Assembly: GCF_006175945.1 (NCBI RefSeq)
Contig: NZ_VAJL01000002.1
Location: 17,258-81,257, forward strand
Reading direction: 5' to 3'
Length of the DNA stretch: 64,000 nucleotides
From: Chryseobacterium mulctrae
GTDB taxonomy: Bacteria > Bacteroidota > Bacteroidia > Flavobacteriales > Weeksellaceae
Part shown: positions 7,538 to 55,661 of the stretch, piece after piece
How positions within the stretch are numbered: the stretch's first letter is position 1
Layout: each line of letters opens with the position of its first letter
Position numbers and translations under genes: made by a program
The notes under the pieces: generated by a model
Seen by the model: the letters and a program-made list of their open reading frames with translations, nothing else
The model's database searches: none
What the model was told of the DNA's origin: nothing

Positions 7538-7553
7538 AATCTCAAAAAACGAT
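7538..7553 (+). repeat. Module-boundary repeat, copy 3 (AATCTCAAAAAACGAT)
   Basis: Direct copy of the 14-base repeat. Immediately downstream the reading frame of the VapE-like gene begins in mid-protein, so this repeat marks a recombination junction. A near-match (TATAAAAAACGAT) lies at 7274-7286. Confidence 0.8.
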
Positions 7554-7595
7554 AAAATATGATCTAATAATGAAGATGAAACCGATTATATTACA

Positions 7596-8522
7596 ATGTT
7601 AGCTGATACAGTAACCACAACAAAACAAGACCTTTGGAGAACCTGCTTCAAGAAATGGTTTGTGGCGATGGTTGCTTGCGTTCTGGATGAAAAACAAGTG
7701 AATCAAACTGTAATCGTATTCAGTGGAAAACAAGGTCTAGGTAAAACAACGTGGATGGAAAAACTAATGCCTAAACAATTGAAAGAATACATCTTTTCAG
7801 GCACGATAAACCCTAACAATAAAGACACTTTAATTCACTTAGCAGAATGTATGCTCATCAACCTGGACGAGCTCGAAAACTTGAATAGATCAGAAATCGG
7901 CAGCTTAAAAGAAATCATTACAAAAACCCATATCAGAATGCGAAAAGCTTATGGCCATAATAATGAAAATATGCCCCGACGCGCCAGCTTTGCCGGATCA
8001 GTTAACACTGCCCAATTCCTTAACGATACAACCGGCTCCCGCCGTTTCCTTTGTTTTGAAGTAGAAAACATAGAATACACCCACAAAATCGACATCAATA
8101 AAGTTTATGCACAGGCAGTAAAGCTCTATAAATCCGAATTCCGCCATTGGTTCAACCAGGAAGAAATCAAAGAAATCAATGCCAACAATGAACAGTACCA
8201 GCTAATGAGTCCAGAAGAAGAATTGTTATTAACATGGTTTGAACCGGCAACGAGAGAAACAGCAAACGCTTTCCTGAATGCTTCTCAAATTGCGGTCCGC
8301 CTGGCAACGGTTGCGAATATAAATGTGACAGACGGAACTGTCAATAAATTAGGCAAAGCTTTAAAGAAACATGGCTTTATCCGTATCGTAAGAAACAAAA
8401 GCTACGTCTACGTTGTAAATGTTCTCGATGTTGATGAAGTAGACAGAAGAGCACGCAAAAAAGAACATATTGAAACCGATAATTCCGAGGTCGGAAAGTT
8501 GCCGTACAGATTTCCGAATTAG
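7596..8522 (+). pseudogene. VapE-like primase/helicase-family protein, N-terminus lost
   Basis: Contains Walker A GKQGLGKTTWM near residue 44 and the VapE-family order of NLDELENL (Walker B-like) and GSRRFLCFEV. VapE-type (virulence-associated E) proteins of mobile elements are SF3-helicase-like and usually much longer, with an N-terminal primase-like region. Here the frame is open a few codons upstream of the ATG but stops inside the sequence adjoining repeat copy 3, so the N-terminal part was removed at that junction. A terminator follows. Whether the 308-residue remnant is made is unknown. Confidence 0.7.
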
Positions 8523-8564
8523 TAATCATTTTCTTTAAAATCAGCCAAAAATTATACTCTTTTG

Positions 8565-8595
8565 AAAAGCGGTGCCAAAAGCACTGCTTTTCTTT
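8565..8595 (+). terminator. Rho-independent terminator
   Basis: Stem AAAAGCGGTGC / GCACTGCTTTT (one G-T pair) with a 5-base loop and T-rich tail after the VapE-like gene. The rest of the gap to 8888 is very AT-rich with T-runs; it must contain the promoter of the next operon but no box was clear. Confidence 0.8.
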
Positions 8596-8888
8596 ATTTT
8601 ATGGCAGTAAGGGCAGTAACCACTTTTTATCAAAAAATTTTTTTTTATTTTTTTTCAAAAAAAAACATATGAATACGAACACTTATAAAGCAAAGTAAAA
8701 CACCCTTTTCCTTATTCTGCATTCTACTTCCTACGATTAACAGGTAAATTTTTTACATAAAAAGTGAAAATTTTCTTTTGGTGAAATTTGCTTACGTCCT
8801 TACTCCCTTTCTGAATTCCCTCTTTTTTCTTTCATTTGCATTTAGTACATTTAGAAATTAAATTAACTACTAAATATAGCCGCCTAAT

Positions 8889-9635
8889 ATGAGAATCATT
8901 ACCCAAGAAACTTTAGCCAAACCAATTGTGGAACGCGTCAAAAATCTTATTCTTAGAAAATTAAATTTAAAAGTTAGAGATGAATTGATTTTTATAGATA
9001 AGAATGTCTTTTTGCAGCTTATTCTAAAAGATATTATAATTCTAGCTATTGCAGATACTGACATTGAAAAAGCGCTGAAAATAGCATTATCAGAAAACTC
9101 CGCCTATCGTGACAATCCGGATATACGGAAAAACGAACTCGCAGAGGCAGCTGAAGAGTTTAAAATTGAGGTACTTGCTTTCTCAGACTTTCTTAATAAT
9201 TTAGAAGAAAACATGGATGATGAAGATATATATGATTGTGTTCTTTCCATTCTCAACTCTGAAGATGAACTTCTTCATGGAAAAATTTTGGAAGTAATAC
9301 GTCCGAAAATTGAAAGTTTTTTTCAACCCGTTTTGATAGAATTTGGGGAAGACGATTACCAATCAGTCGTACATAATTCTCTTTATTACGTACAGACAAT
9401 TGCACTTACTGATTCCTTAGAAGAAGCGGCTGAAGAAACTTTTTTCAGTGCAGAGGAAGAGTCTATTGCCCGGGGAATAACTTTAGAATCAACCTTAGAA
9501 TTGCTTCAAGATTGTAACAAGAAATATGAAGAGGAAATTAAAGCTTACAAGCTTGCTCTAAACATGCATTACCAGAATGCTGAAATACCTGTATCATTCA
9601 ATGTTTTTAAAAACGCTCTAGCTATTTATGATTAA
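8889..9635 (+). CDS. Unknown acidic helical protein (248 aa), first gene of a defence-like operon
   Basis: No family recognised. It is strongly acidic and predicted all-helical, with no membrane segment or Cys motif. The stop overlaps the start of the helicase gene by 8 bases, so it is translationally coupled to the helicase and nuclease. That makes it likely to be a subunit or regulator of the same complex. It opens the operon 8889-14720, whose last gene is cut by a Tn3-family element. Confidence 0.7.
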   Translation: MRIITQETLAKPIVERVKNLILRKLNLKVRDELIFIDKNVFLQLILKDIIILAIADTDIEKALKIALSENSAYRDNPDIRKNELAEAAEEFKIEVLAFSDFLNNLEENMDDEDIYDCVLSILNSEDELLHGKILEVIRPKIESFFQPVLIEFGEDDYQSVVHNSLYYVQTIALTDSLEEAAEETFFSAEEESIARGITLESTLELLQDCNKKYEEEIKAYKLALNMHYQNAEIPVSFNVFKNALAIYD

Positions 9636-12219
9636 TAAAACATTTACAATTGAAGACTTCTGGCAAATCAAAGGCTTCACTCCTAATGCTAGTCAGCGCA
9701 AAGCAATTTTACATACAGAAGGTCCACTTTTTTTAACTGCTGGTCCTGGTTCAGGAAAAACCCGGGTTCTTTTATGGCGAACTCTAAACCTAATTGTTTT
9801 TGAAAATGTTAAACCGGAGGATATTTTCTTGTCTACATTCACCGAAAAGGCTTCTTTGCAACTTCGTGACGGTCTGCGCACATTACTTGGTATTGTCACC
9901 AACTGCACTGGTAAACCGTATGATATTTCAAAAATGTCTATTGGTACTGTTCATTCCATATGTCAAAATCTAATAACGGACCGTCGTTTTTCAGATGGGG
10001 CTGCTCGGAAAAACGCACCTATATTACTTGATTCGCTCTCCCAATATTTCAAGATTTATAACAAACGCTTTTGGCAAAATTTATTACTAGCAGGTGGTTT
10101 CTCAGATGAAGAAGAAGCCAACATCATACTTACTGGGTATCTTAATGGGGACGAAAGAAATAATCGCCATATTGCTTGCCTTGCTGTTATTGGCTTGTTC
10201 AACAGATTTTCAGAAGAAAATTTGGATCCAGATAATGTAGCCACTGATAATGAAATTCTTTCTGCATTACTCCAGATGTATAAATTCTATAAGAATTCCT
10301 TACAAATAAACACATTTACCAAGCAGGTAGATTTTTCTTTACTTCAGCAGGAAGCTTTTCAAGCAATTGAAAATTTCCAAGATTCTGGCCAAGTTTTCAA
10401 GCATATCATTATTGACGAGTATCAAGATACCAACGCCATTCAGGAAAAACTGTATTTTGCTTTATCCGCTGGAAATAAAAATATTTGTGTTGTAGGTGAT
10501 GATGATCAAGCTCTATATCGTTTTCGCGGCGCCACAGTAGAAAACCTTGTGGAATTTGAAAGTAGGTGTAGCAAATCTTTAGGGATCAGGCCTACTCGTA
10601 TCGATTTGGATATTAATTACCGCTCCCGCAAAAAAATAGTTGACCTTTATAAACATTTTATAGTTCAGTCTGATTGGGAAAACCCGCTTTCTAAAGGAAC
10701 CTTTTTCAGAGTTCATAACAAAGAAATCAAAGCGCACAGCGTAGACGTAGCACCTTCTGTTGTTTGTTCAAATCACGATAGGACAATCAATGTTTATGAA
10801 GAAATTGCAAATTTTGTGCTTCAGTTAAAACAAGCTGGCAAAATTCAAGATTACAATCAATGTGCATTTTTGTTCCCATACTTAAAGGGTAGCAGTCGTG
10901 TTGATGGTTTTCAGCAGGCATTTGATAATCTCGGCATACCAGTATATGCACCTCGCGCAAATCCTTTCATTATGGTTGAAGAGGCAAGAGCATTTTTTGG
11001 TTTAATGATGAAGATTTTTGGTCGTCATCATTTTGGTCGGGAAGTTTTTGGTGATCAGAAAAGATTTCGTGATTGGATGATTGGCTGTCTTGCTTTTGCG
11101 GACGATATTATAAAAGAGGACGTTTCGCTGAAAGAATTTATTCAGGACAAGAAAATGGAGAAAGATGCAGCCTTGTCCGATTATCGTATATTAATTTCTC
11201 TAGTTTCTAAAAAGAAGTGGGATACTAATCAGCCTTTTACTTTATCAATGATGAAAGACTTTGCCGAAGTCCCTCGTCTCTCCGAAAAAGCCCGTAAAAA
11301 CCTGACAAATTCATATTTCAAAAAAATTATTGAATCAAAAGAAAAAGAAGGTACTCCTTATTCAATAAATTACATCATCAACAGAACAACCTCATTAGAC
11401 TGGACTGTTCTTGACTTATTTTATCAGCTCAATGGCTTCAGATACTTCCGCGAGATGTATCTTCTGGCTGAAGATGGTACAGACGAAGGCCCTATTTGTA
11501 ATCTTGGCCTTTTAAGCCAATACCTATCCCGTTTTATGGATGAATATGGCACACTCATAACAGCTTCATTTCTAAGTGATGACAAGTTCGTTCGTGTATT
11601 CTTCGCCTCCTATATTTACGCTTTGTTCCGTCTTGGAGAGACGGAATATGAAGATAGCGAAGACCCTTTTCCAAAAGGTCGTATTCCATTTTTAACAATC
11701 CACCAATCAAAAGGGCTTGAATTTCCTGTTGTTGTCATGGGAGCAGTTTTCAAAAGAGAATCCGGTCCGGATAAAAAAGAAATTATTATCAGGGAACTTC
11801 TCAAAAAAGAAGGCGAACCTTTGGATAAGATTTCCCATTACGATAATATGCGTATGTTTTATGTTGCCTTGTCGCGGGCTCAAAATCTTTTGGTCCTGCC
11901 TCGCTATACACATAATTCGAATGCAACTCCAATTTTTAAAGATATTTTCGCAAAATACCCTTTGGAATTGATTTCAGATTTTAATATTGATACAGTTCCT
12001 GTGGCGGATGTAAAAGACGAAGATTTGGGTAAGAGTTATTCTTATACTTCTGATTACTTGCTTTACAATAAATGCCCTCGCAATTATATGATTTTCAAAA
12101 AATATGGCTTCGTCCCTTCACGCTCACAAACGATGTTCTTCGGTTCCTTGGTACACCAGACAATAGAAGATCTGCACCATTTACTTATTAACGAAAGAAA
12201 TAAAGTCTCAGCTGTATGA
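9628..12219 (+). CDS. UvrD/AddA-type helicase carrying the first part of a nuclease domain (863 aa)
   Basis: SF1A motifs are in order: AGPGSGKTRVL near residue 38, IIDEYQDTN near 261, GDDDQALYRFRGA near 290, TIHQSKGLEFPVVV near 690 and FYVALSRAQNLL near 743. The last 60 residues contain YNKCPRNYMIFKKYG and FGSLVHQTIEDLHH, which are the opening of a RecB/AddB-type PD-(D/E)XK domain, including what would be the first Cys of its Fe-S cluster. The remaining nuclease motifs are in the next gene, which starts in the ATGA overlap. No long homopolymer lies at the junction, so the split may be real. Probably a DNA-unwinding subunit of a restriction or defence complex. Confidence 0.88.
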   Translation: MINKTFTIEDFWQIKGFTPNASQRKAILHTEGPLFLTAGPGSGKTRVLLWRTLNLIVFENVKPEDIFLSTFTEKASLQLRDGLRTLLGIVTNCTGKPYDISKMSIGTVHSICQNLITDRRFSDGAARKNAPILLDSLSQYFKIYNKRFWQNLLLAGGFSDEEEANIILTGYLNGDERNNRHIACLAVIGLFNRFSEENLDPDNVATDNEILSALLQMYKFYKNSLQINTFTKQVDFSLLQQEAFQAIENFQDSGQVFKHIIIDEYQDTNAIQEKLYFALSAGNKNICVVGDDDQALYRFRGATVENLVEFESRCSKSLGIRPTRIDLDINYRSRKKIVDLYKHFIVQSDWENPLSKGTFFRVHNKEIKAHSVDVAPSVVCSNHDRTINVYEEIANFVLQLKQAGKIQDYNQCAFLFPYLKGSSRVDGFQQAFDNLGIPVYAPRANPFIMVEEARAFFGLMMKIFGRHHFGREVFGDQKRFRDWMIGCLAFADDIIKEDVSLKEFIQDKKMEKDAALSDYRILISLVSKKKWDTNQPFTLSMMKDFAEVPRLSEKARKNLTNSYFKKIIESKEKEGTPYSINYIINRTTSLDWTVLDLFYQLNGFRYFREMYLLAEDGTDEGPICNLGLLSQYLSRFMDEYGTLITASFLSDDKFVRVFFASYIYALFRLGETEYEDSEDPFPKGRIPFLTIHQSKGLEFPVVVMGAVFKRESGPDKKEIIIRELLKKEGEPLDKISHYDNMRMFYVALSRAQNLLVLPRYTHNSNATPIFKDIFAKYPLELISDFNIDTVPVADVKDEDLGKSYSYTSDYLLYNKCPRNYMIFKKYGFVPSRSQTMFFGSLVHQTIEDLHHLLINERNKVSAV

Positions 12220-13046
12220 CAGATCTAGAAATTGAAGAAAAACTCAAAGAGATTTTCGAACAAAATTATGAGTTATTGAAACTGGAAGGCGGTCACGCTC
12301 TCACCGAGGCCACAAAAAATGATGCTTTTCAGCAGATCTTATATTATTACCGTAAGCTTAGTGATGTAGCAAAAAAAGTCACAGATACTGAAGTTAAATT
12401 AACTTTGCCTGATCAAAAAACCCCAGAAGGTCGTAGTTTTACGATTGAAGGTATAGTTGATATAGTCAGAGAAGATGATGAAGTCTGGATGTATGATATT
12501 AAAACACACGATCCACTCTATGTTCGTTCCAATTTAGATTTTTACCAAAAGCAATTAAATGTTTATTCCTACATTTGGGAAAACCTTCGGGGCAATAAGT
12601 TGGATCATACTGCTGTCATAAGCACAGTTCTGCCTGATGGGCTGAAAAACTCAATCGTCGAAGGAAATGTTTCAAGAGCAGAAAAAGAATTTGCAGACTG
12701 GCAGCCAATTATAGAAATCCCTTTTAAAGAGGAAAATGTTCAATCCACAATTGCGGATTTTGCAGATACGGTGGATAATATAGAAAAGCATTGCTTTACT
12801 CCTCCGCCCGTTGAAATACTTAATAGTTTAATTGAAGGTACAAGGTCTAAGTTCGCAACTAGAATTTGCAGAAACTGCGATGCGCGTTTTTCTTGTTCAT
12901 CATTTAGGGAATATGCTACCTCCATTCAGAAGGGCACTAATATGAACTTCAAAAAATATTATGAAGATTACGGCAGCGATGTGGAGAAAGAAGAATTTAT
13001 CAATGCATCTTTAATTTCAGAAAGGTCTAATGATATCCAATTATAA
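12216..13046 (+). CDS. PD-(D/E)XK nuclease with Cys cluster, RecB/Cas4-like (276 aa)
   Basis: GIVDIV near residue 79 and YDIKTHD near 93 give the D...D-x-K active-site pattern, followed by a QLNVYSYI segment that matches the motif downstream of the core in RecB-family nucleases. CRNCDARFSC near 218 supplies three Cys of a likely 4Fe-4S cluster; the fourth (CPRNY) is in the preceding protein. The 4-base overlap ATGA couples it to the helicase. Together they look like an AddAB-type helicase-nuclease split into two polypeptides. A 29-base gap separates it from the methyltransferase gene. Confidence 0.85.
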   Translation: MTDLEIEEKLKEIFEQNYELLKLEGGHALTEATKNDAFQQILYYYRKLSDVAKKVTDTEVKLTLPDQKTPEGRSFTIEGIVDIVREDDEVWMYDIKTHDPLYVRSNLDFYQKQLNVYSYIWENLRGNKLDHTAVISTVLPDGLKNSIVEGNVSRAEKEFADWQPIIEIPFKEENVQSTIADFADTVDNIEKHCFTPPPVEILNSLIEGTRSKFATRICRNCDARFSCSSFREYATSIQKGTNMNFKKYYEDYGSDVEKEEFINASLISERSNDIQL

Positions 13047-13075
13047 CTTATACTTAAAGTAACACTACTACAAAT

Positions 13076-14773
13076 ATGGCAATCGAAAAACTTAAACCAG
13101 ATTTTCAATTCGACGAAGAAAGAATTAAAAAACTATACGAAATAGTGCCCGAAGCATTTGCAGATGGTAAAATAAACTGGCATTCCCTTCAGGAAGCATT
13201 AGGACATTACAAAGAGGATGATGATGTTGATTCAGAACATTATGGTCTTTTTTGGCCAGGAAAGAGAGAAGCTAGACGTAAATCTGCAAGTCCAAGTACA
13301 GGAACACTCATTCCGGCCAATGATTTTTCATCAAAAGCAATTCATTCTGATAACTTATTTATTGAAGGTGAAAATCTTGAAGTATTGAAATTATTGCAGA
13401 AGGCTTATGCAGATAAGATTAAGATGATATATATTGATCCACCTTACAATACTGGTAACGATTTTATTTATGATGACAACTTTTCAGAAACTGTTGAAGA
13501 TTATATGAGAAGAACCGGTCAATTAGATGAAGATTCAAAACCATTAGCCACAAATTCAAGAGTTGATGGTCGTTTTCATAGTAAATGGCTTTCAATGATG
13601 TATCCCAGATTACGGCTGGCAAGAAACTTACTTAAGGAAGACGGTGTTATTTTCGTAAGTATTGATGATAATGAGGTAGCAAACTTAAAGTTATTGATGA
13701 ATGAAATTTTTGGCGAAGAAAATTTTTTAGGTCAATTTGTTATTAATTCTACACCAAATGCTAGGGATTACGGACATATTGGAAAAATGCACGAATACTG
13801 TTTATTTTATGGCAAAAATTCTACATTAACTGAAACATATCATTTGGAAGATAAGGATAAAAAGTTCAAGTATTCTGATGATATCGGGGATTATAATATA
13901 CACCCATTGTACAATAGTAATGTTGCTTTTACAAACATAAATCGACCTAACCTTTATTATCCTTTTTACCTCAATCTTGATAATAATATTGAAGAAGATT
14001 TCTATGAGATTTCATTAAAACCTTTTAAGAATTCAGTTGAAATATTTCCACCTAAATCGGTTAAAGATAATATTCAATTTGTCTGGCGATGGGGAAAGGA
14101 TAAGTCTGCATCGGAAATGAATGTAAATATCATAGGGTATAAAATTTCAGATGATGAGTATAGGATAGTGCAGAAAATGAGAACGACAGAGAAAGTTGTT
14201 AGATCATTGCTATTAGAAAAAGAATTTAGCAGTAGAAGAGGTACTTCGGATTTGGAAAAATTATTTGGAAAAAAAACTTTCAGTTTTCCAAAACCTCTTG
14301 AACTTATTAAAACTTTTATAAAAGTTGGTTCGACAGATGGCGACACAATACTTGATTTTTTCTCGGGTTCTGGCACATTAGCACAGGCGGTTTTAGAGTT
14401 AAATGCAGAAAGTGCTGAAACAAGAAATTTTATTACTGTTCAACTGCCTGTTAAAACGAAATTTGAAATTAACACCGAAATTAAAGATCTTGAGAATATT
14501 TCTGATATTACGGAAGCGAGAATTGAAAAATCAATAATTCAATGCCGAAAAATAAATAGTGAAAAAGACTTTTCTTATAAGAAATTTAGATTAAGTACTT
14601 CATCATTCAAAATTTGGCAAGATTACTTAGGTTCGGATATTACAGCCTTAGAAAAATTACTTTCAGAAAATTCTAATCCATTGATTTCCGACTGGGAAAT
14701 AGATAATTTGTTATCAGAAAGGGGTCGGTCGACGAAAAGTAAAAAAAACAGGGTTAAGGATAAAATCTATTAA
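13076..14773 (+). pseudogene. Beta-class DNA methyltransferase (type III Mod-like), 3' end replaced by transposon
   Basis: DPPYNTGNDF near residue 121 (motif IV) precedes DFFSGSGTLAQAV near 428 (motif I/FxGxG). This is the order of beta-class amino-methyltransferases, including type III Mod. The native frame runs to 14720, where the terminal inverted repeat of Tn-A begins, and the final residues are translated from the repeat. Both catalytic motifs are present, so a slightly shortened enzyme may still work, but the gene that would follow, such as a Res subunit or another partner, has been lost. It is the last gene of the 8889 operon. Confidence 0.88.
14721..14758 (+). repeat. Tn-A left terminal inverted repeat (38 bp)
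   Basis: Starts GGGGTCGGTCGACGAAAAGT and ends AGGGTTAAG. It differs from the right end by a G for A at position 7. It lies inside the methyltransferase reading frame. Confidence 0.92.
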
Positions 14774-14804
14774 AATTTAATTTTTAATAGATAAATTTAT
14801 AAAA

Positions 14805-15416
14805 CTAATTTGGGGAATCCTGTATTTTATTTTTTTTTATCCAGTTATGGAGGTTCGCCGGAGTCGAATTATAGCGTTTTGCTATAAATTTTTTGGTAGA
14901 ACCATTTTTAAGTAAAGCTTGTATTTCCAATTTGTGAGTATCAAGTTTACTTTTTCCTGGTCCTTTTGGTCTACCTAATTTAATTCCGTTTGCTTTTTTT
15001 GTCTGCAGCGCTTCTTTTGTTCTTTTGGAAATCAAGTCCCGTTCAATCTCTGATACCATAGAAAATACCATTGCCATCACTTTACTTTGTATGGTATCGT
15101 CAAGTTGCCAGTTTCCTTTGACAGTATAAATATTAATGCCTTTCTCTGTCGCAATAGAAATAATTTCCATGCATTCAAGCATACTTCGTCCCAATCTGGA
15201 AAATTCATTTAAAAGGATAGTATCTCCTTTTTGTAAATCCTCTATGATCTCACCAATTTTACGTTTTCTCCAGTGAATCTTTCCGGAGATTTTTTCTTCT
15301 ACAAAATCTACTTTACCTAAAGATTTGTCATTCGCTAAAAATAAAATTTCTGCTTTATTTTTTTCAAGATCCTGGTCAGCTGTTGATACCCTTAGATAAG
15401 CTACATTCTTTGACAT
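14805..15416 (-). CDS. tnpR: Serine resolvase of Tn-A (203 aa)
   Basis: AYLRVSTADQDLEKNK at the N-terminus carries the catalytic Ser of the resolvase/invertase family. EFSRLGRSMLECMEI and ERDLISKRTKEAL follow in the expected places, and a C-terminal helix-turn-helix ends in NSTPANLHNWIKKN. It should resolve cointegrates formed by TnpA at a res site in the 124-base divergent gap to tnpA. It is clearly different from the Tn-B resolvase (32669), so the two elements do not share a resolution system. Confidence 0.9.
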   Translation of the reverse strand: MSKNVAYLRVSTADQDLEKNKAEILFLANDKSLGKVDFVEEKISGKIHWRKRKIGEIIEDLQKGDTILLNEFSRLGRSMLECMEIISIATEKGINIYTVKGNWQLDDTIQSKVMAMVFSMVSEIERDLISKRTKEALQTKKANGIKLGRPKGPGKSKLDTHKLEIQALLKNGSTKKFIAKRYNSTPANLHNWIKKNKIQDSPN

Positions 15417-15540
15417 AAAAGCTATTTTAAAATTAAAGGTATAAATATTAAATTATTCTATATAAAAAAGTAAAATATAAATATGTATTTTTATTTAATT
15501 ATAACTTTATTGAAAACGGTCATTTTTACAATGTTATTTT
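15417..15540. promoter_or_regulatory. Divergent tnpR-tnpA gap, probable res site and promoters
   Basis: A 124-base AT-rich gap between divergent resolvase and transposase genes, the usual place of the res site in Tn3 elements. Several ATAAATAT-like repeats are visible, but subsites could not be assigned. Confidence 0.5.
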
Positions 15541-46259: not shown

Positions 46260-46475
46260 ATGAACGCTCCAAAATATGTAAGCTTCGAAGTTTTAAAAGT
46301 AGAAGATACAAGAAAGACAGGCTCAACAGTAGCCGTAGGAAGAATTTTAACAGGACTTTGTTATGAAAGTAGTAATACTGTTTTTTTCTCTGATGATAAT
46401 GGTCAGGATTGGACTTTTTATGTTGGAGATACTTGTGAGATTTTAGAAACAAAAAAACAAACACAAATGTTTTAA
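46260..46475 (+). CDS. Hypothetical protein (71 aa)
   Basis: A small soluble protein with beta strands (YVSFEVLKVEDTRKTGSTVA). A TATATTTG -7 box lies near 46213 and the recurring AT-rich leader directly precedes the ATG. Two bases separate it from the next gene. Unknown function. Confidence 0.5.
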   Translation: MNAPKYVSFEVLKVEDTRKTGSTVAVGRILTGLCYESSNTVFFSDDNGQDWTFYVGDTCEILETKKQTQMF

Positions 46476-46477
46476 TT

Positions 46478-46783: not shown

Positions 46784-46805
46784 TAATTATCTAAATTCAT
46801 TAGAA

Positions 46806-47129: not shown

Positions 47130-47136
47130 AAAATAA

Positions 47137-47195
47137 TTCGTTATTCGTTCCAGGATCTGAACGATTTCAGCTCAATCCGGAACGAATTTAACGAA
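47137..47195. promoter_or_regulatory. Inverted repeat upstream of parA, operator or centromere candidate
   Basis: TTCGTTATTCGTTCC (47137-47151) and GGAACGAATTTAACGAA (47179-47195) are near-perfect inverted repeats ending 16 bases before the parA start. Confidence 0.6.
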
Positions 47196-47211
47196 CTAAA
47201 ATATACAGTAC

Positions 47212-47976
47212 ATGAAAGCAAAAGTAATATCAATTTTTACGCAAAAAGGCGGTGTAACAAAAACCACAAGTACAATTAATATTTCGGGTGTAATGGCTGA
47301 AATGGGCTTGAAAGTTTTAGTTATTGATTTTGACACGCAATGTCATTTATCGTTAGGTTATGGAGTAGATGCAGAGAATGAATATAATGTTGAAGATTTT
47401 TTAAAATCTGTTGAACCTGTTAGATATGTAAATAAAGGAAAAGGTGAAAATGTTAGTGTAATTGCAGGTAAATTAACTTTGTCAACCAAAAACTTAAATA
47501 GGAAGAGCCTAAAAAAAGCATTGAAAAAAATTGGTGATGATTTCGATTATATTTTGATTGATTGTCCACCTAAACCTATTAATGATGATTTAGGCTTTGG
47601 AGAAATTGCAGTTTATGCATCTGATTATATAATTTCTCCTGTTGATTATGACGCTTTTACTTTGGATGGTTTAACTTCATTAATTATAAAAATTAATGAA
47701 TTGCAGACCAATGAAGAATTGAAGGCAAAATATTTAGGGTTTTTCTTCGCTAAAGTAGAAGAAAATACGAAAGATTTTAAAGAAGCTTACAGAGAACTTT
47801 CGGAAAGCCCAATTTCTGATATGCTTTTTAAAAGTTATGTAAGAAAGAATGCGTTTATTAGAACAAGTATAAATCTTGGTGAATCAGCAGTGTTTTTAAA
47901 GCCCTATAGCCCTGTTTCTATGGATTACAGAAAGTTAGCTGATGAATTAATACAAAAGATTAAGAGTAATGCATAA
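47212..47976 (+). CDS. parA: ParA-family partition ATPase (254 aa)
   Basis: ISIFTQKGGVTKTTSTINIS carries the deviant Walker A with an unusual Thr in KGGVTKTT, and LVIDFDTQCHLSLGYG and FDYILIDCPPKPIND follow. It resembles Soj/ParA ATPases. Its stop overlaps the start of the next gene by 8 bases. It segregates the main replicon together with that gene product. Confidence 0.9.
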   Translation: MKAKVISIFTQKGGVTKTTSTINISGVMAEMGLKVLVIDFDTQCHLSLGYGVDAENEYNVEDFLKSVEPVRYVNKGKGENVSVIAGKLTLSTKNLNRKSLKKALKKIGDDFDYILIDCPPKPINDDLGFGEIAVYASDYIISPVDYDAFTLDGLTSLIIKINELQTNEELKAKYLGFFFAKVEENTKDFKEAYRELSESPISDMLFKSYVRKNAFIRTSINLGESAVFLKPYSPVSMDYRKLADELIQKIKSNA

Positions 47977-48457
47977 AAAGCCAATAATGAAAGGATTAGA
48001 TAAGCTTAAAACAGCAGGAACAAACTTGCAGGTGAGTAATGATAAAATAGAAGAGAAAAAGCATGTATATTCTGATAAAAACAGTGTTGTCTTAGCCGTA
48101 ACTCTTCCTGTCAGCATGATTACTTATCTGAAAGAACTCGTAATTCATAAGATTGAATCTGATTATAGCTATAGTGAAGGTTCTGCCGTAAGAGAAGGAA
48201 TCAAACTATTACAAGAAGCTTCGCCCTTTGTGAAGCAACGTCCAGACGATGTACCTGTGCCGACAAAAAAAGGTAGAAAATCTACAGCAAATAAAGATAT
48301 TATAAAGAAAAACACTTCATTTCTAATTAGTGAAGCAGATCAAAATTTTATCTATAATTTTATTTATCACAAGCAAAAGGGTGGGGGAGTATTTATTAAG
48401 GAAGAATTATTTTCCTTGTTAATTGAGCATTTAGAAAATAAGTATAAACTTAAATAA
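47969..48457 (+). CDS. ParB-like partner of ParA (162 aa)
   Basis: A basic protein with VVLAVTLPVSMITYLKELVI, an RHH-like strand-helix-helix, and a second helical domain (SFLISEADQNFIYNFIYH). Coupled to parA. It does not look like a classical large ParB; it is probably the centromere-binding partner acting on the inverted repeat at 47137. Confidence 0.6.
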   Translation: MHKKPIMKGLDKLKTAGTNLQVSNDKIEEKKHVYSDKNSVVLAVTLPVSMITYLKELVIHKIESDYSYSEGSAVREGIKLLQEASPFVKQRPDDVPVPTKKGRKSTANKDIIKKNTSFLISEADQNFIYNFIYHKQKGGGVFIKEELFSLLIEHLENKYKLK

Positions 48458-48463
48458 AAAGTC

Positions 48464-48724
48464 ATGGCTTTAATTAATTGTCCGGAGTGTTCCAAATCGA
48501 TTTCAGATAGTGCAAATAATTGCCCTTATTGCGGTTATCCTATCAATACCACCAAAGTTTTAAAACCGAAAGGACAGGGGTGTTTTATGCAAACTCTAAA
48601 TGCAGGTTGTTTGATAATCGTTGTAATTTTTGTTTTTGCTTTAGTGATAGGCGGAATTGCCACATTTTCAAAAATCAAAAAACCATCTAAGAACGCAGAC
48701 AGTACAGAATTAAAGTCAAAATAA
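48464..48724 (+). CDS. Zinc-ribbon plus transmembrane protein (86 aa)
   Basis: INCPECSKSISDSANNCPYC is a zinc ribbon (two CxxC pairs), followed by one transmembrane helix (AGCLIIVVIFVFALVIGGIA) and a basic tail. Such 'zinc-ribbon domain-containing' membrane proteins are common in bacteria without known function. It lies 6 bases after the ParB-like gene and is followed by a terminator. Confidence 0.7.
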   Translation: MALINCPECSKSISDSANNCPYCGYPINTTKVLKPKGQGCFMQTLNAGCLIIVVIFVFALVIGGIATFSKIKKPSKNADSTELKSK

Positions 48725-48730
48725 AAAAAA

Positions 48731-48775
48731 GAGCTCTAATAAATTAGAACTCCTCAAACAAAATAATTTGTTTTT
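48731..48775 (+). terminator. Terminator hairpins after the par operon
   Basis: GAGCTCTAAT / ATTAGAACTC stem, then a smaller AAACAAA...TTTGTTTTTT structure with a T-run. Confidence 0.65.
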
Positions 48776-48823
48776 TCCTAACACGAATTTACAAATATTT
48801 TTCCTAACACCAAAAATATTACG

Positions 48824-49093
48824 ATGAAAAAGACAGAAAGTAAAGGTTTTTTTTGTGTAGCATATTTAACTAACGAAAAAAAAACAATATGGTACAACAA
48901 GGTTTGGAAGCCTTCAAAAATGGCAGATTACTTAGATAAAGAAAATAAGCCGTGGTTATGGATTAAGATTTATCTTCATAAAAACGATTACTTTTCTAAT
49001 CCGAAGGCTAATAATTATCATTCAATTTTTGATAAAGAACATCCTGTACAGGATTTTACATTTCAACAATTTGCAAAAAATAACATAGGATGA
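48824..49093 (+). CDS. Hypothetical protein upstream of rep (89 aa)
   Basis: A basic, aromatic-rich soluble protein (KTIWYNKVWKPSKMADYLDK). Its stop overlaps the ATG of the next small gene (ATGA). First gene of the rep operon. No family recognised. Confidence 0.55.
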   Translation: MKKTESKGFFCVAYLTNEKKTIWYNKVWKPSKMADYLDKENKPWLWIKIYLHKNDYFSNPKANNYHSIFDKEHPVQDFTFQQFAKNNIG

Positions 49094-49230
49094 AAAAGAA
49101 TTATTTACAGAGAATCAAAGAAATAGATAGTAAAGAAATAAAACTTTCTTCTGATAAAAATATTATTTACTACGACATTAATAAGCCTAAAAATGTTGTA
49201 AAAACTTTTGATGAAAAAAAGAGAAAATAG
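49090..49230 (+). CDS. Small protein between the leader gene and rep (46 aa)
   Basis: Starts in an ATGA overlap and ends at TAG 49230, overlapping the likely rep start at 49211. Its last codons depend on a seven-A run that is probably one base too long. Basic, no motif. Confidence 0.4.
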   Translation: MKKNYLQRIKEIDSKEIKLSSDKNIIYYDINKPKNVVKTFDEKKRK

Positions 49231-50303
49231 AGTATATAAATATTTCAAATCTAATCTATAGCGAAATTTTCAAAAATTCCGGTGAATTGATAGATGCACC
49301 CATTGAAGCAATTAGAATAATCTTTATTTTGATACATCAGGCAAAATCAGTCAATTTCAACCAACCTCGTGCGCCTTATACACCTTCACTATTTGAAGAA
49401 GAATTTCTTTCACGAGATAATACATTTGCAAATTTTATTATTCCTACTGAATTAATATCACCATCGAGAAATGTTCAAAGAATTGAAAAAGCCTTACATC
49501 TTTTAATACAGCGTACATTAAGAACAGTGGTTCAAAAAAACTCTAAAGGTGAAGAAATTAGAAGTGTTATTCCTCTTATAGCAAATAATTCGTTCACAAG
49601 GGGTAAAGTATATTTAGAAGTAAATAGTTATTGGTTGGAAAAAATGGCAAATATTGAATTTTACAATGATGTACTTTTCAATTTGGCTTATAATATTCCC
49701 AACACTCAACAAATATTTTTTGCTCTATGGTTGAGATCAATACCGATGTATAAAGATGCTGAATTCAAAAAAGAAACATATACAAGCTGGACACAAATTA
49801 ACATTGAAACACTAAAAAAGAAATTTAGTTTAGAAGGTAGAGATAAAGATTACATAAGTGAAAAATTCTTAAAACCAATACAGGCGAAATTATATGAATT
49901 TAATGATAGAAGTTTTGCTTTCACCTATAAAAATGGGACTTACTACATTATCGCATTAGATGTGAATCGAAATAAGATTTTAGAAAGGCTTAAACCTGAA
50001 AATGCATATAAAGCCAAGGTAAAGTATCAAATTAATTACTTGCAAAGAAGACACAAAATTGATAAAGATAGCTTAGAACATATTGAAACTATTTATTTAA
50101 ATAGTTCGGCAGATATGGAATTAATGAATGATGCATATGACAATTTAAAAAAATCTGTTAGAAAACAGGATATTAAAATGACAGATTTAACAGGATTGAA
50201 ATTTTTAGCAAAATGGCAAGTAGAAATTCAAAATCAGTATGAAAATTCAGAAAAATTCAAACAATTTCCAAAAGGATATCCTAAGTTGATTACTTCAGAA
50301 TAA
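49211..50303 (+). CDS. Rep_3-family replication initiator of the main replicon (about 363 aa)
   Basis: The open frame from TTG 49287 (338 residues) lacks a natural start. ATG 49211 is followed by seven A; with six A the frame becomes KKEKIEYINISNLIYSEIFK and runs into IDAPIEAIRIIFILIHQAKS, so one A is probably an error. Two winged-helix domains follow, with WTQINIETLKKKFSLEGRDK typical of this Rep family. Eleven iterons follow the stop directly. It is the only full-length Rep on the molecule, so it should be the active initiator. Confidence 0.78.
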
Positions 50304-50304
50304 T

Positions 50305-50954
50305 GCTGAATGTTTGGAGTATTTTAAAAACTATTGCTGAATGTTTGGAGTTTTTTTGCTGAATGTTTGGAGTGAATTTGCTGAATGTTTGGAGTAATTG
50401 AAGTTTTTAGGATAAAAAACATACAAAATTGCAAAGTTTGCTGAATGTTTGGAGTATAATTTTATATTTTTTAATAGTTTTCAATACAATGATGGTAAAG
50501 GGGTTACAGCATCACAAAAAAGTGAACTTTTTTTGCAGAATGTTTGGAGTGCATATTGCCTATTTCTGCTGAATGTTTGGAGTGTTTTTGCTGAATGTTT
50601 GGAGTGTTTTTGCTGAATGTTTGGGGTGTAAATGCGTGCCAAGTCCTTTCAGTAATGGGTTACGGGCGACTCTAAAAGTATTATATAAAGGAGTATTAAA
50701 GTTTATAATAAAAGGAGTTCGCTATGCTCACGATCTTTTTTTTGTCCTTTCGGATAATTTTTTTATAGTCGGAAAAAACAAACTATAATTTTTCTCTATC
50801 GTAAAAAGAAAAAAGTTGCGAAAAAAAGAAAAATTTTTATCGGAATTGCTGAATGTTTGGAGTATTTAATAATTCGTTATTACAATTCGGATCTGATGCA
50901 GCTTACTATCTTTAAGATTAGTTTTATCGAACTATTTTGCTGAATGTTTGGAGT
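50305..50954. repeat. Main origin: eleven 16-bp iterons (GCTGAATGTTTGGAGT)
   Basis: Exact or one-mismatch copies start at 50305, 50336, 50358, 50380, 50440, 50535 (GCAG variant), 50568, 50590, 50612 (GGGGT variant), 50848 and 50939, all in the same orientation. A sequence ATAGTCGGAAAAAACAA shared with the mob cassette lies at 50765. This is the replication origin bound by the Rep protein at 49211; the short frame inside it is not a gene. Confidence 0.92.
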
Positions 50955-51015
50955 ATTTTTTCAAAATTACTGTTAACCGTAAAGTTGATATTATATTTCA
51001 TAATAATTTTATAAT

Positions 51016-51252
51016 ATGAAAACATTTGATAAAATTAAATCTACCTTAGACAATTTGGAAACTAATATTGAAAGAAAAAAATATCTCAAGTCTATACAGA
51101 ATGACCCAAACATTGGAAGACATGACTTAAGGAGAATTGTCTGTAATACGATGGAAGAAACCAACTTTATTGAATCTTACTATAAAGTTGAATTTGAGAA
51201 TAATTTAAAAACTATTATCATAAAAATAATTGCATTTTTTGAAAAAAAATAA
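51016..51252 (+). CDS. Hypothetical protein (78 aa)
   Basis: Helical, basic, ending in Lys-rich sequence; reads FDKIKSTLDNLETNIERKKY at the N-terminus. The ATG is preceded by AT-rich sequence resembling the leaders of this replicon. No family recognised. Confidence 0.45.
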   Translation: MKTFDKIKSTLDNLETNIERKKYLKSIQNDPNIGRHDLRRIVCNTMEETNFIESYYKVEFENNLKTIIIKIIAFFEKK

Positions 51253-51394
51253 TTTAAACCTTTCAATTTTTCTTGAATTTTCAATTATGAAATTCATAAT
51301 TAATTGAAGGCATTTAGTGTCAGTGCTAAATTAAAAATAATTATATAATCAACATTATATAATTTGTTTTAGTTTAAAAAAACGGTAGTATTTT

Positions 51395-51454
51395 GAGATT
51401 TTGAAAAATGCAACTTTGAATTCTTATTTTTTCAAATAATTTTCTCAAAATCTC
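51395..51454. promoter_or_regulatory. Inverted repeat before the serine recombinase, possible res-type site
   Basis: GAGATTTTGA (51395-51404) and TCAAAATCTC (51445-51454), followed by GTAT, 58 bases before the recombinase start. The right arm, TCTCAAAATCTCGTAT, weakly resembles the module-boundary repeat. The gap 51253-51511 has nothing else. Confidence 0.45.
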
Positions 51455-51511
51455 GTATCATTAAACAAAGTTTCATAAATTTACATAGTATGAGTTTAAT
51501 GTAACAAAAAT

Positions 51512-52117
51512 ATGAAAATAGGATATGCTCGGGTTTCAACCAAAGATCAAAATTTGCATTTACAAATTGAAGCCTTAGAAAAAGCAGGTTGTGAGAAAAT
51601 TTATCAGGAGAAAATTTCGGGTGCAACAAAGAATCGTCCCGAACTTGATAAGATGATTGACCAGTTTCGAGAAGGTGACGAACTTTATGTGTGGCGATTG
51701 GACAGATTGGGTAGAAGTTTAAAAAACATTATTGATCTTGTCTTAAGTTTGAGTGATAAAGGAATTTTAATAAAAGGTCTTGTAGATGGTGTAGATACTT
51801 CAACTATCAATGGACGACTATTTTTGAATCTCATGGCTTCTTTAGCTGAATATGAAAGAGAGTTAATAAGAGAAAGAACCAACGCAGGACTACAATCTGC
51901 AAGAGCAAGAGGTAGACTCGGTGGCAGACCAAAAGGTTATACTGCAGAAACAATTTCTAAACTGTTACTTCTGCGCAATATATACAAAGATGTCACGAAA
52001 CGTCCCGAAGATATTTATAAGCCTTTTGGATTGACTAGGGCTACCTTTTATCGGTATGCTAAAATTCTGGACAATTATAGTGATGAAGAAATTAAAAAAA
52101 TGGGTATTAAAAGGTAA
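51512..52117 (+). CDS. Serine recombinase, resolvase/invertase family (201 aa)
   Basis: IGYARVSTKDQNLHLQIEAL (catalytic Ser), RLDRLGRSLKNIIDL, TINGRLFLNLMASLAEYERE and a C-terminal HTH (YKPFGLTRATFYRYAKIL). Not part of either Tn3 element; it stands alone beside the main origin with an inverted repeat just upstream. It could resolve plasmid multimers, or act on the directly repeated module-boundary sites; the latter is speculation. Confidence 0.9.
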   Translation: MKIGYARVSTKDQNLHLQIEALEKAGCEKIYQEKISGATKNRPELDKMIDQFREGDELYVWRLDRLGRSLKNIIDLVLSLSDKGILIKGLVDGVDTSTINGRLFLNLMASLAEYERELIRERTNAGLQSARARGRLGGRPKGYTAETISKLLLLRNIYKDVTKRPEDIYKPFGLTRATFYRYAKILDNYSDEEIKKMGIKR

Positions 52118-52279
52118 AAGTTCGCTAATCCAAAGATAAATTTGAGCGAAACAAAACTGTATGAAACTAATAATCAATTAATCAAAATAATATTTTATAT
52201 TAGTAGCATAAATGGCTTTGCGAATATCATATAGTTTGGATTGACGCAATGCGTAAATTTGGAAGTTAGCAGAAAGTTT

Positions 52280-53116
52280 ATGAACACAAATCGTAACAAA
52301 AATTATATTGTAAATTACATTTTCATTTTTGGCATTTTGATTCTATTTTTAAATGATCAAATATTCAAATTTGAATTTTCAAATTATTTTACTGGAAAAT
52401 TATCTGATGTTTGTGGAATAATTATTTTTCCATTTTTTTTGACATATATTTTCCCAAAACTCAAGCAGAATAGTGTTTTTGCTGCAGCTATTATTTTCTC
52501 ATTTTGGAAAAGTCAATATTCACAAAGTCTGATTAATTTCTACAATGAAATTTCACCAATTCAAACATCAAGAATTATTGATTATTCTGATTTGTTTGTT
52601 TTATTACTTTTGCCAATACCATATTATCTGATTAAAAATGTTCACAAAATAGATTTTTTAACAATAAAAAAACTGAATCCAAAATTTATTTTTGTCATAT
52701 CTTTATTCATATTTATTGCAGAAGCACCGCCACCAAGTCATTACTTTACTATGAATAATGGAAATCTTCAATGTTACAAATGCAATATGAAAGTAAACCA
52801 TAGCAAAGACTACGTACTTAATAAACTTAAACAAAATGGAATCGAATTTGACACGGTGAGACTAATTCATTATCGAAGTGTTATTGATTCTACAAGTGGA
52901 GGAAAAAAATATATTAAAAATGAGTTAATTATTGACAATGATACTTTACGAAATATAAGTTTTACTATTTTCCCTCTAAAAGGGAATAGAACTCAAATTT
53001 ATTTCAACGGTGCTGATGTTTCACAGGATTTGAGAAGAGATGATTTTAAGTTGCAAAGAAAAATGCGGAAATATTATCGTAAAATTGTTTTCGATGAAAT
53101 TAAAAGATCATTCTAA
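52280..53116 (+). CDS. Polytopic membrane protein (about 278 aa), unknown
   Basis: The ATG at 52280 is chosen because it precedes NTNRNKNYIVNYIFIFGILI. About four transmembrane helices in the first 150 residues are followed by a soluble C-terminal domain with two Cys (CYKC) and several beta strands. No family recognised. It stands between the serine recombinase and the IS91-type element. Confidence 0.6.
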   Translation: MNTNRNKNYIVNYIFIFGILILFLNDQIFKFEFSNYFTGKLSDVCGIIIFPFFLTYIFPKLKQNSVFAAAIIFSFWKSQYSQSLINFYNEISPIQTSRIIDYSDLFVLLLLPIPYYLIKNVHKIDFLTIKKLNPKFIFVISLFIFIAEAPPPSHYFTMNNGNLQCYKCNMKVNHSKDYVLNKLKQNGIEFDTVRLIHYRSVIDSTSGGKKYIKNELIIDNDTLRNISFTIFPLKGNRTQIYFNGADVSQDLRRDDFKLQRKMRKYYRKIVFDEIKRSF

Positions 53117-53356
53117 AAAAACCTTCTGCTAATAACTAAGCTTTCGTCTTGTCCGCAGGACACGAGATGAAAGCCCGTTGAACGGAAGCTCCGGGAGCTT
53201 TTTTGGCCGTCTATGTAGTTTTCGATTTTAGGATTTAGGGTAACAAAGCAGTTTTTTGGAATGACTGCTTTTTTTTGTGGCATTTGGTAGCCTTTATGAG
53301 TGGTTTTCTGCAGGTTTTTCTTCGCTGCAGCATATAAATTCCCTTACCCGCAAAGG

Positions 53357-54463
53357 TTATTTTGCAGACAATGGTTGGATAACGAAAAGAAATTCCGGTG
53401 GCGGACCGCGCTGCCCGAAAACAGCTATAGTGACTAAGTTTCCTTCCTTGCAACTTCGACATTTCCGGAGCAAAGTTTTCGGTTTTGCTGCAGTAACTCT
53501 GATTTTCAAATCGGATTGCAGTGCCTGCAGTTTCCCACGCTTCCAGCTGCTGCTCAGGATGCCGTAATGCCGGATCCTTACAAATCTTTTCGGTAAAATA
53601 TGCATCGAAAACCTCCGGACAAACTCCGTGTTTGCAAGAGTCATTTCCTTTTTTTCGCCGCCTTTGCGGTAATCTTTGTACTCAAAACGGACCTGCTGAT
53701 CCGTCACTTCTTTTATGCGGTGATTGCTGATGGCGACTTTGTGAGTGTATCTCCCCAAGTACTCGATCACCTGTTTCGGGCCGCCAAAAGGCCGCTTGGC
53801 ATATACGACCCAGTTCTTGGTGAAGAGTTTCTCCATTAAATCCCGGTCAGTAATTCCACAGGCTCTTAAGGAAGTCACAAACTTTGCCCGAAAGACTTTG
53901 CTCAGCGCTTTTACTGGAAACAGAAACTTATCCGTCCTTACTTTCTTTCTCCATTTTCCCTGCATCGTGAGACCACCTCCCGGCACAATGCAGTGCAGAT
54001 GCGGATGAAGACTCAGGTTTTGTCCCCACGTGTGCAAAACACCAATCATGCCCAGCTGCAGGCCTTCGGTTTTGCCGAACTGGTTCAAAGTGGCCCAGGC
54101 GGCCTCAAACAGGATCTTGTAAATAAGTTGGGGCTGGGATATTGCGAGCCCATTCAACTCCTCCGGCAGGGTAAAAACCACATGGTAATAGCTGCAGGGC
54201 AAGAGGTCCTGTTCGCGCTTCTGGATCCATTCTTCCCGTTTATGACCCTGGCACTGCGGACAGTGCCGGTTACGGCAGGAGTTGTAACTGATGGAAAGAT
54301 TTCCGCAACCATCACACGTATCAATATGACCACCCAAGGCAGAAGTCCGGCAGTTGGACAATGCCCGCAATGTCTTTTCCTGATGAACGCTGAAGTTTTG
54401 GGATGATAAATTGATTTTGCGAAGAACTTCTGCTACATTCGCACCTTTACTTCGGGCCTGCAT
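53357..54463 (-). CDS. IS91-family transposase (about 368 aa)
   Basis: CDGCGNLSISYNSCRNRHCP is the N-terminal zinc-binding region of IS91/IS801 transposases, followed by YYHVVFTLPEEL, LHPHLHCIVPGGG (HUH) and the RYTHKVAISNHRI segment with the catalytic Tyr. The internal Met at 54463 (MQARSKGANV) is taken as the start because the upstream frame overlaps the recombinase gene. It mediates rolling-circle-like transposition. Confidence 0.88.
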   Translation of the reverse strand: MQARSKGANVAEVLRKINLSSQNFSVHQEKTLRALSNCRTSALGGHIDTCDGCGNLSISYNSCRNRHCPQCQGHKREEWIQKREQDLLPCSYYHVVFTLPEELNGLAISQPQLIYKILFEAAWATLNQFGKTEGLQLGMIGVLHTWGQNLSLHPHLHCIVPGGGLTMQGKWRKKVRTDKFLFPVKALSKVFRAKFVTSLRACGITDRDLMEKLFTKNWVVYAKRPFGGPKQVIEYLGRYTHKVAISNHRIKEVTDQQVRFEYKDYRKGGEKKEMTLANTEFVRRFSMHILPKRFVRIRHYGILSSSWKRGKLQALQSDLKIRVTAAKPKTLLRKCRSCKEGNLVTIAVFGQRGPPPEFLFVIQPLSAK

Positions 54464-55434
54464 TCCTGCTGCATAAAGTAAATACCGTATCCAAAGGACT
54501 GTGCGGTTTTTGGTCCGAGAGCTGGCACACATGAAGATATTCCATTGTACTTTCAATACGCTCATGACCCAGAAGTTTCTGCACCATAATGATCGGAACA
54601 CCGTCTTCCAGCAGATGAGTCGCATAGCTGTGTCGTAGCGTGTGGGTGTGCACCTCTTTGGTGATGCCTGCTTTTTTAGAGATGGTTTTTATTACCCACT
54701 GCACGCCACGCTGACTGTAGCGGGAATCGAAATCTTTTCTATTCGGAGCTAAAACATCAATATCTTCGATATTCCTGTTTTGATTGCCATTAAACAGATA
54801 CTGATTAGGATTCTCAATACTGATAAAGGTTTTCAGTCCACTGATCAAATGTTCCGACAAAGGAACATACCGGTCTTTGCTCCCTTTACCCTGAACAACA
54901 TGTAACATCTTCCGGTCAAAATCCAGATGCTGAAGTTCGATATTCCTTACTTCCATACACCGCAGTCCACAGCCGTAAATAAGTCCGATGAGCAGTTTAT
55001 GTTTCAGGAGTTCGGCGGATTGAAGCATACGCCAGATCTCTTCCCGACTCAGGATGACAGGAAGCTTTTTCACTTGTGGAATAGCGGGAAGATGCAGAAA
55101 ACTATAAGGCAGGCCTTCCGTTTTCAATAAAAAGCGAAGTCCGTAAACGGTGTGTTTAAAGTAAGTTTGGGAAGGAGTTTTGGAGCGTTGCTGCAGTTCA
55201 AAAAGATAATCTTTGACCTGTTCGGGATCCAACTCGGTAGGCAGGGTTTTAAAATGCAGTGCCAGGGCTGTCACATGGCGGGAATAATTGTCGAACGTTC
55301 TGGGGCTCCTGCCCAAGATCGAAATATTCCTTTCGAAGCGTTGCAGCAGTTCGGCAAAACCACTAACTTCGCTCGAGGCACGGTTCAGAATTTTGTTTAC
55401 CCTTAACTCCTCCGGAGATTTTTTTTGTAGCCAT
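54447..55434 (-). CDS. Tyrosine recombinase of the IS91-type element (about 329 aa)
   Basis: Catalytic residues are seen in GCGLRCMEVRNIE (Arg), GKGSKDR (Lys), HTHTLRHSYATHLLE (His-x-x-Arg) and LGHERIESTMEYLH (His, Tyr). The frame from TTG 55316 is shortened. ATG 55434 followed by seven instead of eight A gives KSPEELRVNKILNRASSEVS in frame, so one A is probably an error. It is coupled by overlap to the IS91-type transposase, an arrangement common in Bacteroidetes. Confidence 0.85.
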
Positions 55435-55645
55435 TTTAAAGATTTTTTGTTGTTTTACCAAAGTTAATAAAACAGCGAAGGGAAAAGCTACCGGAGGTTT
55501 AGTTCAACAAGGATTTTGCAATAGTGGGGCGAAACTGCAAAGTTCAACGGCAGTTTTTCGGTTCAAATTTTGTTCAAAATTGAAGATTTGTGCTTCGAAT
55601 GCCCCACCATCGCAAAGGAGCCCCGAAACGTTCTAGATCAAATAA

Positions 55646-55661
55646 AGTCTCAAAAAACGAT
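55646..55661 (+). repeat. Module-boundary repeat, copy 4 (AGTCTCAAAAAACGAT)
   Basis: Direct copy of the 14-base repeat just outside the IS91-type element, opening the surface-protein module. The gap 55662-55902 holds no gene. Confidence 0.8.

Follow-up and report, generated by a model that had tools for sequence, protein, structure and literature searches.

What is a short sequence doing that recurs five times, on one strand and between genes, on a plasmid of Chryseobacterium mulctrae? The question is raised by a stretch of 64,000 nucleotides of this bacterium (contig NZ_VAJL01000002.1, positions 17,258 to 81,257), the whole of which is called the window below, and for which a preliminary description had proposed a cassette-like array built by site-specific recombination on a new target, neither an attC nor a dif site. 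Comparison with related genomes supports this proposal and suggests, with a probability that we put at roughly 0.85, that the 14-bp repeat, hereafter the core, belongs to a platform of gene cassettes operated by a small serine recombinase. The evidence comes from the sites themselves, their polarity around recombinase genes, the switching of their flanks and the position of the breakpoint. It also carries the proposal further, to chromosomal arrays, to a serine recombinase encoded about 4 kb upstream of the first site and to a crossover at the right edge of the 14-mer.

The exact core, TCTCAAAAAACGAT, is found at positions 1490, 3554, 7540, 55648 and 60742 of the window, all on the plus strand; the count and strand had been given correctly before, with coordinates two bases too low. 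All five copies lie between open reading frames (ORFs) of at least 80 amino acids (aa), in agreement with their described intergenic position, and the claim that far less than one copy is expected also holds, as a first-order model predicts 0.0016 exact copies per strand of the window. When up to two mismatches are allowed, the window has eight matches, compared with a mean of 2.28 and a maximum of 6 in 100 shuffles. Among the module sizes proposed earlier, that of 5.1 kb has to be revised because a variant core, TCTCATAAAATGAT, stands at 60091, so that the module consists of two cassettes. The first 2,648 positions of the window repeat its end (61359-64000) at 99.5% identity; the DNA is therefore a circle of about 61.4 kb holding five sites. 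Where site 1490 recurs in the redundant end (near 62842), its A-run is one A short, probably through an assembly error, and this homopolymer error hides one core from exact searches. The host genome has the exact core at 23 places, 14 of them chromosomal, with 12 copies on one strand within 38 kb and two further ones; contig C2 (81,257 bases, with a redundant end) has seven, corresponding to the five on the circle with two seen twice, and contig C3 has two.

In a sample with one genome per species, an extended form of the core, ARTCTCAMAAAACGAT, was matched in 89 of 148 Chryseobacterium genomes, the host included, giving 343 matches against 4 for the reversed pattern and up to about 25 sites per genome. 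A scan of the phylum with TCTCAMAAAACGAT matched 47 of 395 genomes, with one or two matches per genome outside Chryseobacterium, and the reversed control matched in about 28 genomes; the exact core is therefore not phylum-wide. Alignment of 399 sites with at most one mismatch delimits a conserved block, A(A/G)TCTCA(A/C)AAAACGAT, whose right edge is sharp, with only a weak A/T preference beyond it (up to 0.14 bit). No conserved upstream arm was detected in this alignment, all columns from -24 to -3 carrying at most 0.13 bit. The 5' flank, described earlier as ATAAAA-like, is A-rich, with good conservation confined to positions -2 (A) and -1 (A/G). The last two letters of the core change with the lineage: in five Pedobacter genomes it ends in AA, not AT, in 53 of the 54 matches listed, and in two Epilithonimonas genomes AT occurs 10 times and AA twice. 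Pedobacter sp. MC2016-05 (L150, G553) has 24 matches to the CGAA form of the core and none to the reversed pattern, and is thus rich in arrays.

What the core does is indicated by the behavior of its flanks. Across many genomes, the site flanks different genes in direct orientation, the pattern that the preliminary description had suggested looking for, and the flanks switch at the site itself. Among 468 distinct sites, 71 pairs share the left flank and differ on the right, and 66 pairs show the reverse. In a rerun with 467 sites, the core itself gave 70 pairs alike on the left and 66 alike on the right, compared with 5 and 0 at an offset of +150 bases, 0 and 4 at -150, and 7 and 1 at +300; owing to the relatedness of the genomes, the pairs are not independent. 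Identical cores were found in 43 of the 71 same-left pairs and in 22 of the 66 same-right pairs (P 0.002), and in 28 of 39 versus 5 of 20 when flanks at least 97% alike were considered. Core identity follows the left flank more than the right, and the core letters therefore mostly, though not always, stay with the upstream cassette; the letters of TCTCATAAAATGAT, for instance, are kept before three different cassettes. Within the host, the plasmid junction at 60091 corresponds to the chromosomal array minus 4,340 bp, from core to core: its left side is identical over 628 of 628 bases, its right side is 99.4% identical over 3,929 bases, and it carries the variant letters of the left core. Among the array-to-array alignments listed, several have their start close to core position 12, or a few bases to the left of the core, and their end at core position 14 or 15; many others start or end inside cassettes. 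On these comparisons, the repeat behaves as a recombination site.

What lies between the sites was cataloged by cutting cassettes between successive sites 120 to 4,500 bp apart. The 139 distinct cassettes have a median length of 1,048 bp (quartiles 612 and 1,844); 127 contain an ORF of at least 50 aa, the largest ORF lies on the core strand in 107, and 79 have a single ORF. The distance from the core to the first same-strand ATG has a median of 62 bp (107 cassettes). The core is the 3' end of gene cassettes, mostly of one ORF.

Which enzyme would act on these sites? The candidate is a small protein with a resolvase catalytic domain (PF00239), here termed the clade A recombinase, which aligns over residues 1-145 to the DNA-invertase chain 4m6f of the PDB and shares with it Ser9, Arg7 and DRLGRS; Ser9 is presumably the nucleophile. 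Clade A loci are 67-97% identical in their best segment, with some fragments, and an open frame of at least 190 aa is present in 35 of 43, so some copies are decayed or partial. A second group of enzymes, clade B (11 loci), is 43-46% identical to the clade A enzyme. Each clade forms one group in a 55-row tree, and the two are not sisters, yet they occupy the same place beside arrays. Counted by side and strand, the sites around the 43 clade A loci number 79 (downstream, same strand), 1 (downstream, opposite strand), 0 (upstream, same strand) and 1 (upstream, opposite strand); the clade B loci give 49, 0, 0 and 0 in the same classes. In total, 128 of 130 sites at 54 loci are downstream on the same strand, with 0 matches to the reversed pattern around either clade. 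At least one site accompanies 30 of the 43 clade A and 10 of the 11 clade B loci. By contrast, 20 other resolvase loci (40-60% identical) showed no bias, with one site in each of the four classes and two in the reversed control.

The window holds an arrangement of this kind, with the following features (all coordinates are those of the window):

51385-51399, plus strand: left end of the unit that contains the recombinase gene, GTAGTATTTTGAGAT, a core-like half-site in inverted orientation.
51440-51459, plus strand: motif TTTTCTCAAAATCTCGTATC upstream of the recombinase gene, well conserved across Chryseobacterium clade A loci.
51512-52117, plus strand: clade A small serine recombinase, 201 aa (PF00239, 150.5 bits).
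52163-52182, plus strand: proposed entry site GAAACTAATAATCAATTAAT, ending in AT, behind the recombinase gene.
52183-55661, plus strand: cassette 1, with a 291-aa ORF without a Pfam match and the core at 55648-55661.
53357-55316, minus strand: IS91-like transposase and tyrosine recombinase (PF04986/PF14319 and PF00589), apparently a separate insertion by which cassette 1 is interrupted.
55662-60104, plus strand: cassette 2, with ORFs of 239, 894 (L-type lectin domain) and 188 aa and the variant core TCTCATAAAATGAT at 60091-60104.
60105-60755, plus strand: cassette 3, with the core at 60742-60755; its left junction corresponds to the 4,340-bp core-to-core difference from the chromosomal array.
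60756-61362 and on across the circle junction, plus strand: cassette 4, with ORFs at 60834-61436, 61433-61945 (the same as 76-588) and 581-1339, ending at the core at 1490-1503.
1490-1503, plus strand: core ending cassette 4.
1504-3567, plus strand: cassette 5, with a UvrD-like helicase (1705-3456) and the core at 3554-3567.
3568-7553, plus strand: cassette 6, or several, with a Por sorting tail protein (3985-4872), a 181-aa ORF, a beta-barrel-like protein on the other strand (5879-6469) and the core at 7540-7553.

The point of exchange can be approached through junctions with other DNA. We searched for cassette-start DNA that occurs elsewhere without a core before it, and in 21 of 28 groups of counterparts, three being ties, the junction is preceded by the core's own last dinucleotide, against an AT background of 10.3%. 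Without three look-alike groups, 18 of 25 share the dinucleotide (P about 4e-13), and 15 of 25 do so if ties are counted against (P about 2e-9). This fits a 2-bp crossover at core positions 13-14, typical of the invertase and resolvase family; a crossover dinucleotide is the simplest account because these positions vary by lineage and are shared at junctions. In the window, the sequence before 52183, 65 bases behind the recombinase gene, is not a core yet ends in the same AT, and a counterpart of the DNA that begins with this AT at 52181 and runs on into the cassette at 52183 stands behind a core in another locus (L088; 95.5% over 88 bp). At the other end of the unit, the boundary falls between CG on the host side (51383-51384) and GT; homology among recombinase loci begins sharply there, and the host flanks differ. 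The boundary is common to one clade A and one clade B unit: Chryseobacterium aquifrigidense (G045, NZ_VFPD01000001.1) has a chromosomal flank 95-96% identical to that of another genome, G020, in which a clade B unit sits at the CG/GT boundary; the unit that begins at this nucleotide in C. aquifrigidense is of clade A. Further along in C. aquifrigidense, a later core is fused, at TTG-AT-AAAG, to the interior of the clade B recombinase gene (about position 96), and identity over the 2,395 bases past the junction is 99.2%. No clean empty chromosomal site was found by one pattern search, which led to three genomes, the only new one (G158) being a chance match without homology, or by one flank search, in which 136 of 148 genomes match, with the matches listed mostly ending well before the boundary.

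Taken together, these observations suggest how such a platform may work. The 3' end of a cassette is a conserved half-site, A(A/G)TCTCA(A/C)AAAACG, with the proposed crossover dinucleotide behind it (AT, or AA in Pedobacter), and the recombinase gene lies upstream and points into the array. A staggered 2-bp exchange at AT would join the core of one cassette to one of three partners, the AT that starts another cassette, the end of the enzyme's own gene or an AT elsewhere in loosely matching sequence, and could in this way delete, insert or reorder cassettes. With so little constraint on the right half-site, new DNA that lies behind an AT could turn into a cassette, provided that its far end bears a core. 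In reverse, the left end of the clade A unit (GT-RGTATTTTGAGAT) nearly matches the core. If the unit and its cassettes were closed into a circle, two half-sites would thus face each other, the arrangement expected at the target of a serine recombinase; cassettes would keep the left half-site only. From linkage, enzyme family and breakpoint, we infer that the clade A recombinase is the catalyst, and cassettes would presumably pass through circular intermediates. An attI-like role as entry point may fall to the 3' end of the recombinase gene; in 3 of the 11 clade B loci (L202, L203 and, less well, L206) core-like sequence lies over its stop codon. Additionally, TTTTCTCAAAATCTCGTATC is well conserved in Chryseobacterium clade A loci and altered in Sphingobacterium, Pedobacter and Dyadobacter, and may be a second binding site or operator. 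At six loci (L132, L175, L227, L136, L207 and L243), a core runs into an apparently 5'-truncated recombinase gene, the AT of the fusion varying in position, as if newer units had repeatedly replaced older ones.

Several observations weigh against this serine recombinase platform. The right half-site is almost unconserved, which is unusual for a dimer-binding enzyme, and the dinucleotide is not shared in 7 of the 28 counterpart groups; in two Dyadobacter genomes, the 16 matches listed are divided between AA (11) and AT (5). The core differs in 28 of the 71 same-left pairs, including 11 of the 39 with nearly identical flanks and with several of these pairs sharing one sequence (L208), so that core letters must also mutate or the breakpoint must vary. 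Arrays without a nearby recombinase match exist (e.g., G003 1224136-1255655), and no site with up to one mismatch was found at 13 of the 43 clade A and 1 of the 11 clade B loci, some on short contigs, or in two of three plasmid records examined, those of Chryseobacterium balustinum and Emticicia. Furthermore, no more than 8 of the 20 resolvase loci used as controls are from Chryseobacterium.

Other mechanisms could produce a constant end beside variable DNA. Cassettes might be non-autonomous rolling-circle elements of the IS91 or Helitron type, moved by a Y2 transposase encoded elsewhere, with the core as the constant end before an AT target. One constant and one variable end, the AT at the target and the IS91-like element beside the first core of the window would suit such elements, as would two related tyrosine recombinase copies inside the chromosomal array, with an IS91-like gene beside the one checked. 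These two (G000:C1 2362923 and 2388029) belong to nine equal-scoring genome matches of a related 316-aa tyrosine recombinase. We nevertheless regard rolling-circle movement as improbable: it is a serine recombinase that neighbors arrays in two clades (Y2 linkage was not surveyed over all arrays), clade A and clade B units meet the host at the same nucleotide, and three related recombinases (G000:C1 863475, 866989 and 978735) have no cores in the 18-20 kb around them, 2 of the 9 316-aa copies having been examined. No hairpin signal appeared before the core either (mean z -0.28 at 120 sites and -0.17 at 113 controls, with RNA parameters and 20 shuffles each), and the idea of an attC-like fold was dropped on the same 120 sites. 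A 14-mer acting as part of a promoter or operator, with switches caused by homologous recombination or independent insertions, would agree with the short distance from core to gene (median 62 bp) and is highly improbable, given that 136 pairs change flanks at the core, far more than at the offset controls, that junctions with non-core DNA usually share about a dinucleotide only, and that a 14-bp match is short for RecA recombination; the breakpoint data already contradict a purely regulatory role.

Is the array, then, a true integron or a series of pdif modules, driven by a tyrosine recombinase (IntI or XerC/XerD) on attC or dif sites? The likeness to integrons is considerable and includes a polar array with a recombinase gene at one end, cassettes of about 1 kb, most of which have a single ORF and which carry the site at their 3' end, the occurrence of arrays both with and without a recombinase, some decayed recombinases, chromosomal and plasmid forms and many cassettes of unknown function; a tyrosine recombinase even adjoins the first core of the window. 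That protein, however, scores 158 bits against an integron integrase cut-off of 265 and overlaps the IS91-like transposase gene, and with an IS91-like partner and related copies without cores it was rejected as the driver. The linked enzyme belongs to PF00239, and in the only other genome looked at for IntI, G003, no PF00589 match lies by two of three arrays. Here a serine rather than a tyrosine enzyme is encoded by a gene that points into the array, and attC, whose R''/L''/L'/R' arms fold as a single strand, is replaced by a half-site of 16 bp that shows no such fold and probably has a 2-bp crossover. The pdif modules of Acinetobacter plasmids are likewise bounded by short recombination sites, but these are 28-bp XerC/XerD sites in alternating orientation, whereas the sites studied here are not two-armed, have no conserved upstream arm or fold, lie nearly all in one orientation and are linked to a recombinase of another family. 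An integron or pdif array in the strict sense is therefore very unlikely. A link to the chromosome terminus and its dif site was also considered and set aside: the host array is found halfway along the chromosome contig (50%), but those of G003 lie at 1.22, 2.37 and 4.95 Mb.

Within its own enzyme family, the platform differs from DNA invertases and resolvases (Gin, Mpi and the Tn3 type) by direct rather than inverted sites, so that no invertible segment is framed, by up to about 25 of them per genome and by arrays of different genes; the clade A recombinase scores 57.9 bits with the NCBIfam Mpi model (cut-off 272). With the IS607 model it scores 23.1 bits (cut-off 110). Serine transposases of the IS607 or TnpX type have a similarly relaxed target, requiring little more than a dinucleotide, and move their own gene, whereas cassettes without a recombinase seem to move here. 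As for IS91 and ISCR elements, in which a Y2 transposase and ori/ter ends are linked to the mobile unit, a Y2 gene stands beside one window array, and three related recombinase copies elsewhere have no cores.

Integrons are the textbook gene-collecting platform, with one enzyme lineage and folded single-stranded sites. We consider it probable that the integron idea evolved at least twice, with two serine recombinase clades each running arrays on the same one-sided 16-bp site, where only the cassette half-site and the dinucleotide would matter and almost any DNA could be captured. If so, a second platform would exist, working on double-stranded half-sites with an enzyme of 186-201 aa, and cassette capture would have evolved independently. 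Such a platform would explain variable regions in Chryseobacterium and its relatives, point to a reservoir of uncharacterized genes, some of them defense-like, and provide a compact recombinase with minimal target demands. In the open-access full-text literature, a scope outside which subscription journals and preprints fall, we recognized no description of such a system and found no core sequence.

The products of the cassettes are diverse. The protein scan took in 119 of the 127 cassette proteins and found 83 Pfam families, of which, among the 25 listed, the YhcG/DUF1016 nuclease is the commonest (5), followed by beta-lactamase-family proteins (3) and Por sorting tails (3); two products are AbiC-like. 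The commonest PADLOC models match five cassette proteins, probably the YhcG-like ones already seen with Pfam. An annotated plasmid of Chryseobacterium shandongense has two cores with one mismatch each, a restriction endonuclease between the recombinase and the first core, and two Abi proteins beyond the last core found. In the window, the gene beyond the core at 7540 was described as VapE-like and cut; its likeness to VapE is confirmed (a 308-aa ORF at 7596, PF05272), and as the match starts at position 17 of the 217 in the profile, any 5' truncation within the domain is slight.

A second serine resolvase on the plasmid (32669-33220), 41% identical to the clade A enzyme, has no cores in the 20 kb around it. 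In cassette 4, the plasmid (60834-61945) has two ORFs of 200 and 170 aa where the chromosomal copy (L009:311-1459) has a single one of 382 aa, through a frameshift or an assembly error near the circle junction. A cassette of about 272 bp with a 69-aa ORF occurs three times in one chromosomal array in different contexts (G000:C1 2357840, 2368409 and 2390807). Several otherwise different cassettes open with leaders resembling CAAAATAAAATTTTATATTAG (window 52183; L040, L105, L136, L236 and L248), perhaps a recurring promoter. Finally, in the last 70 bases of 359 cassette tails and 349 controls, AACGTT occurs in 17 tails, mostly near -23, and in 3 controls, and AGATATA in 16 tails and 1 control, as if a minority of cassettes (e.g., L012, L013 and L038) had an extended 3' tail.

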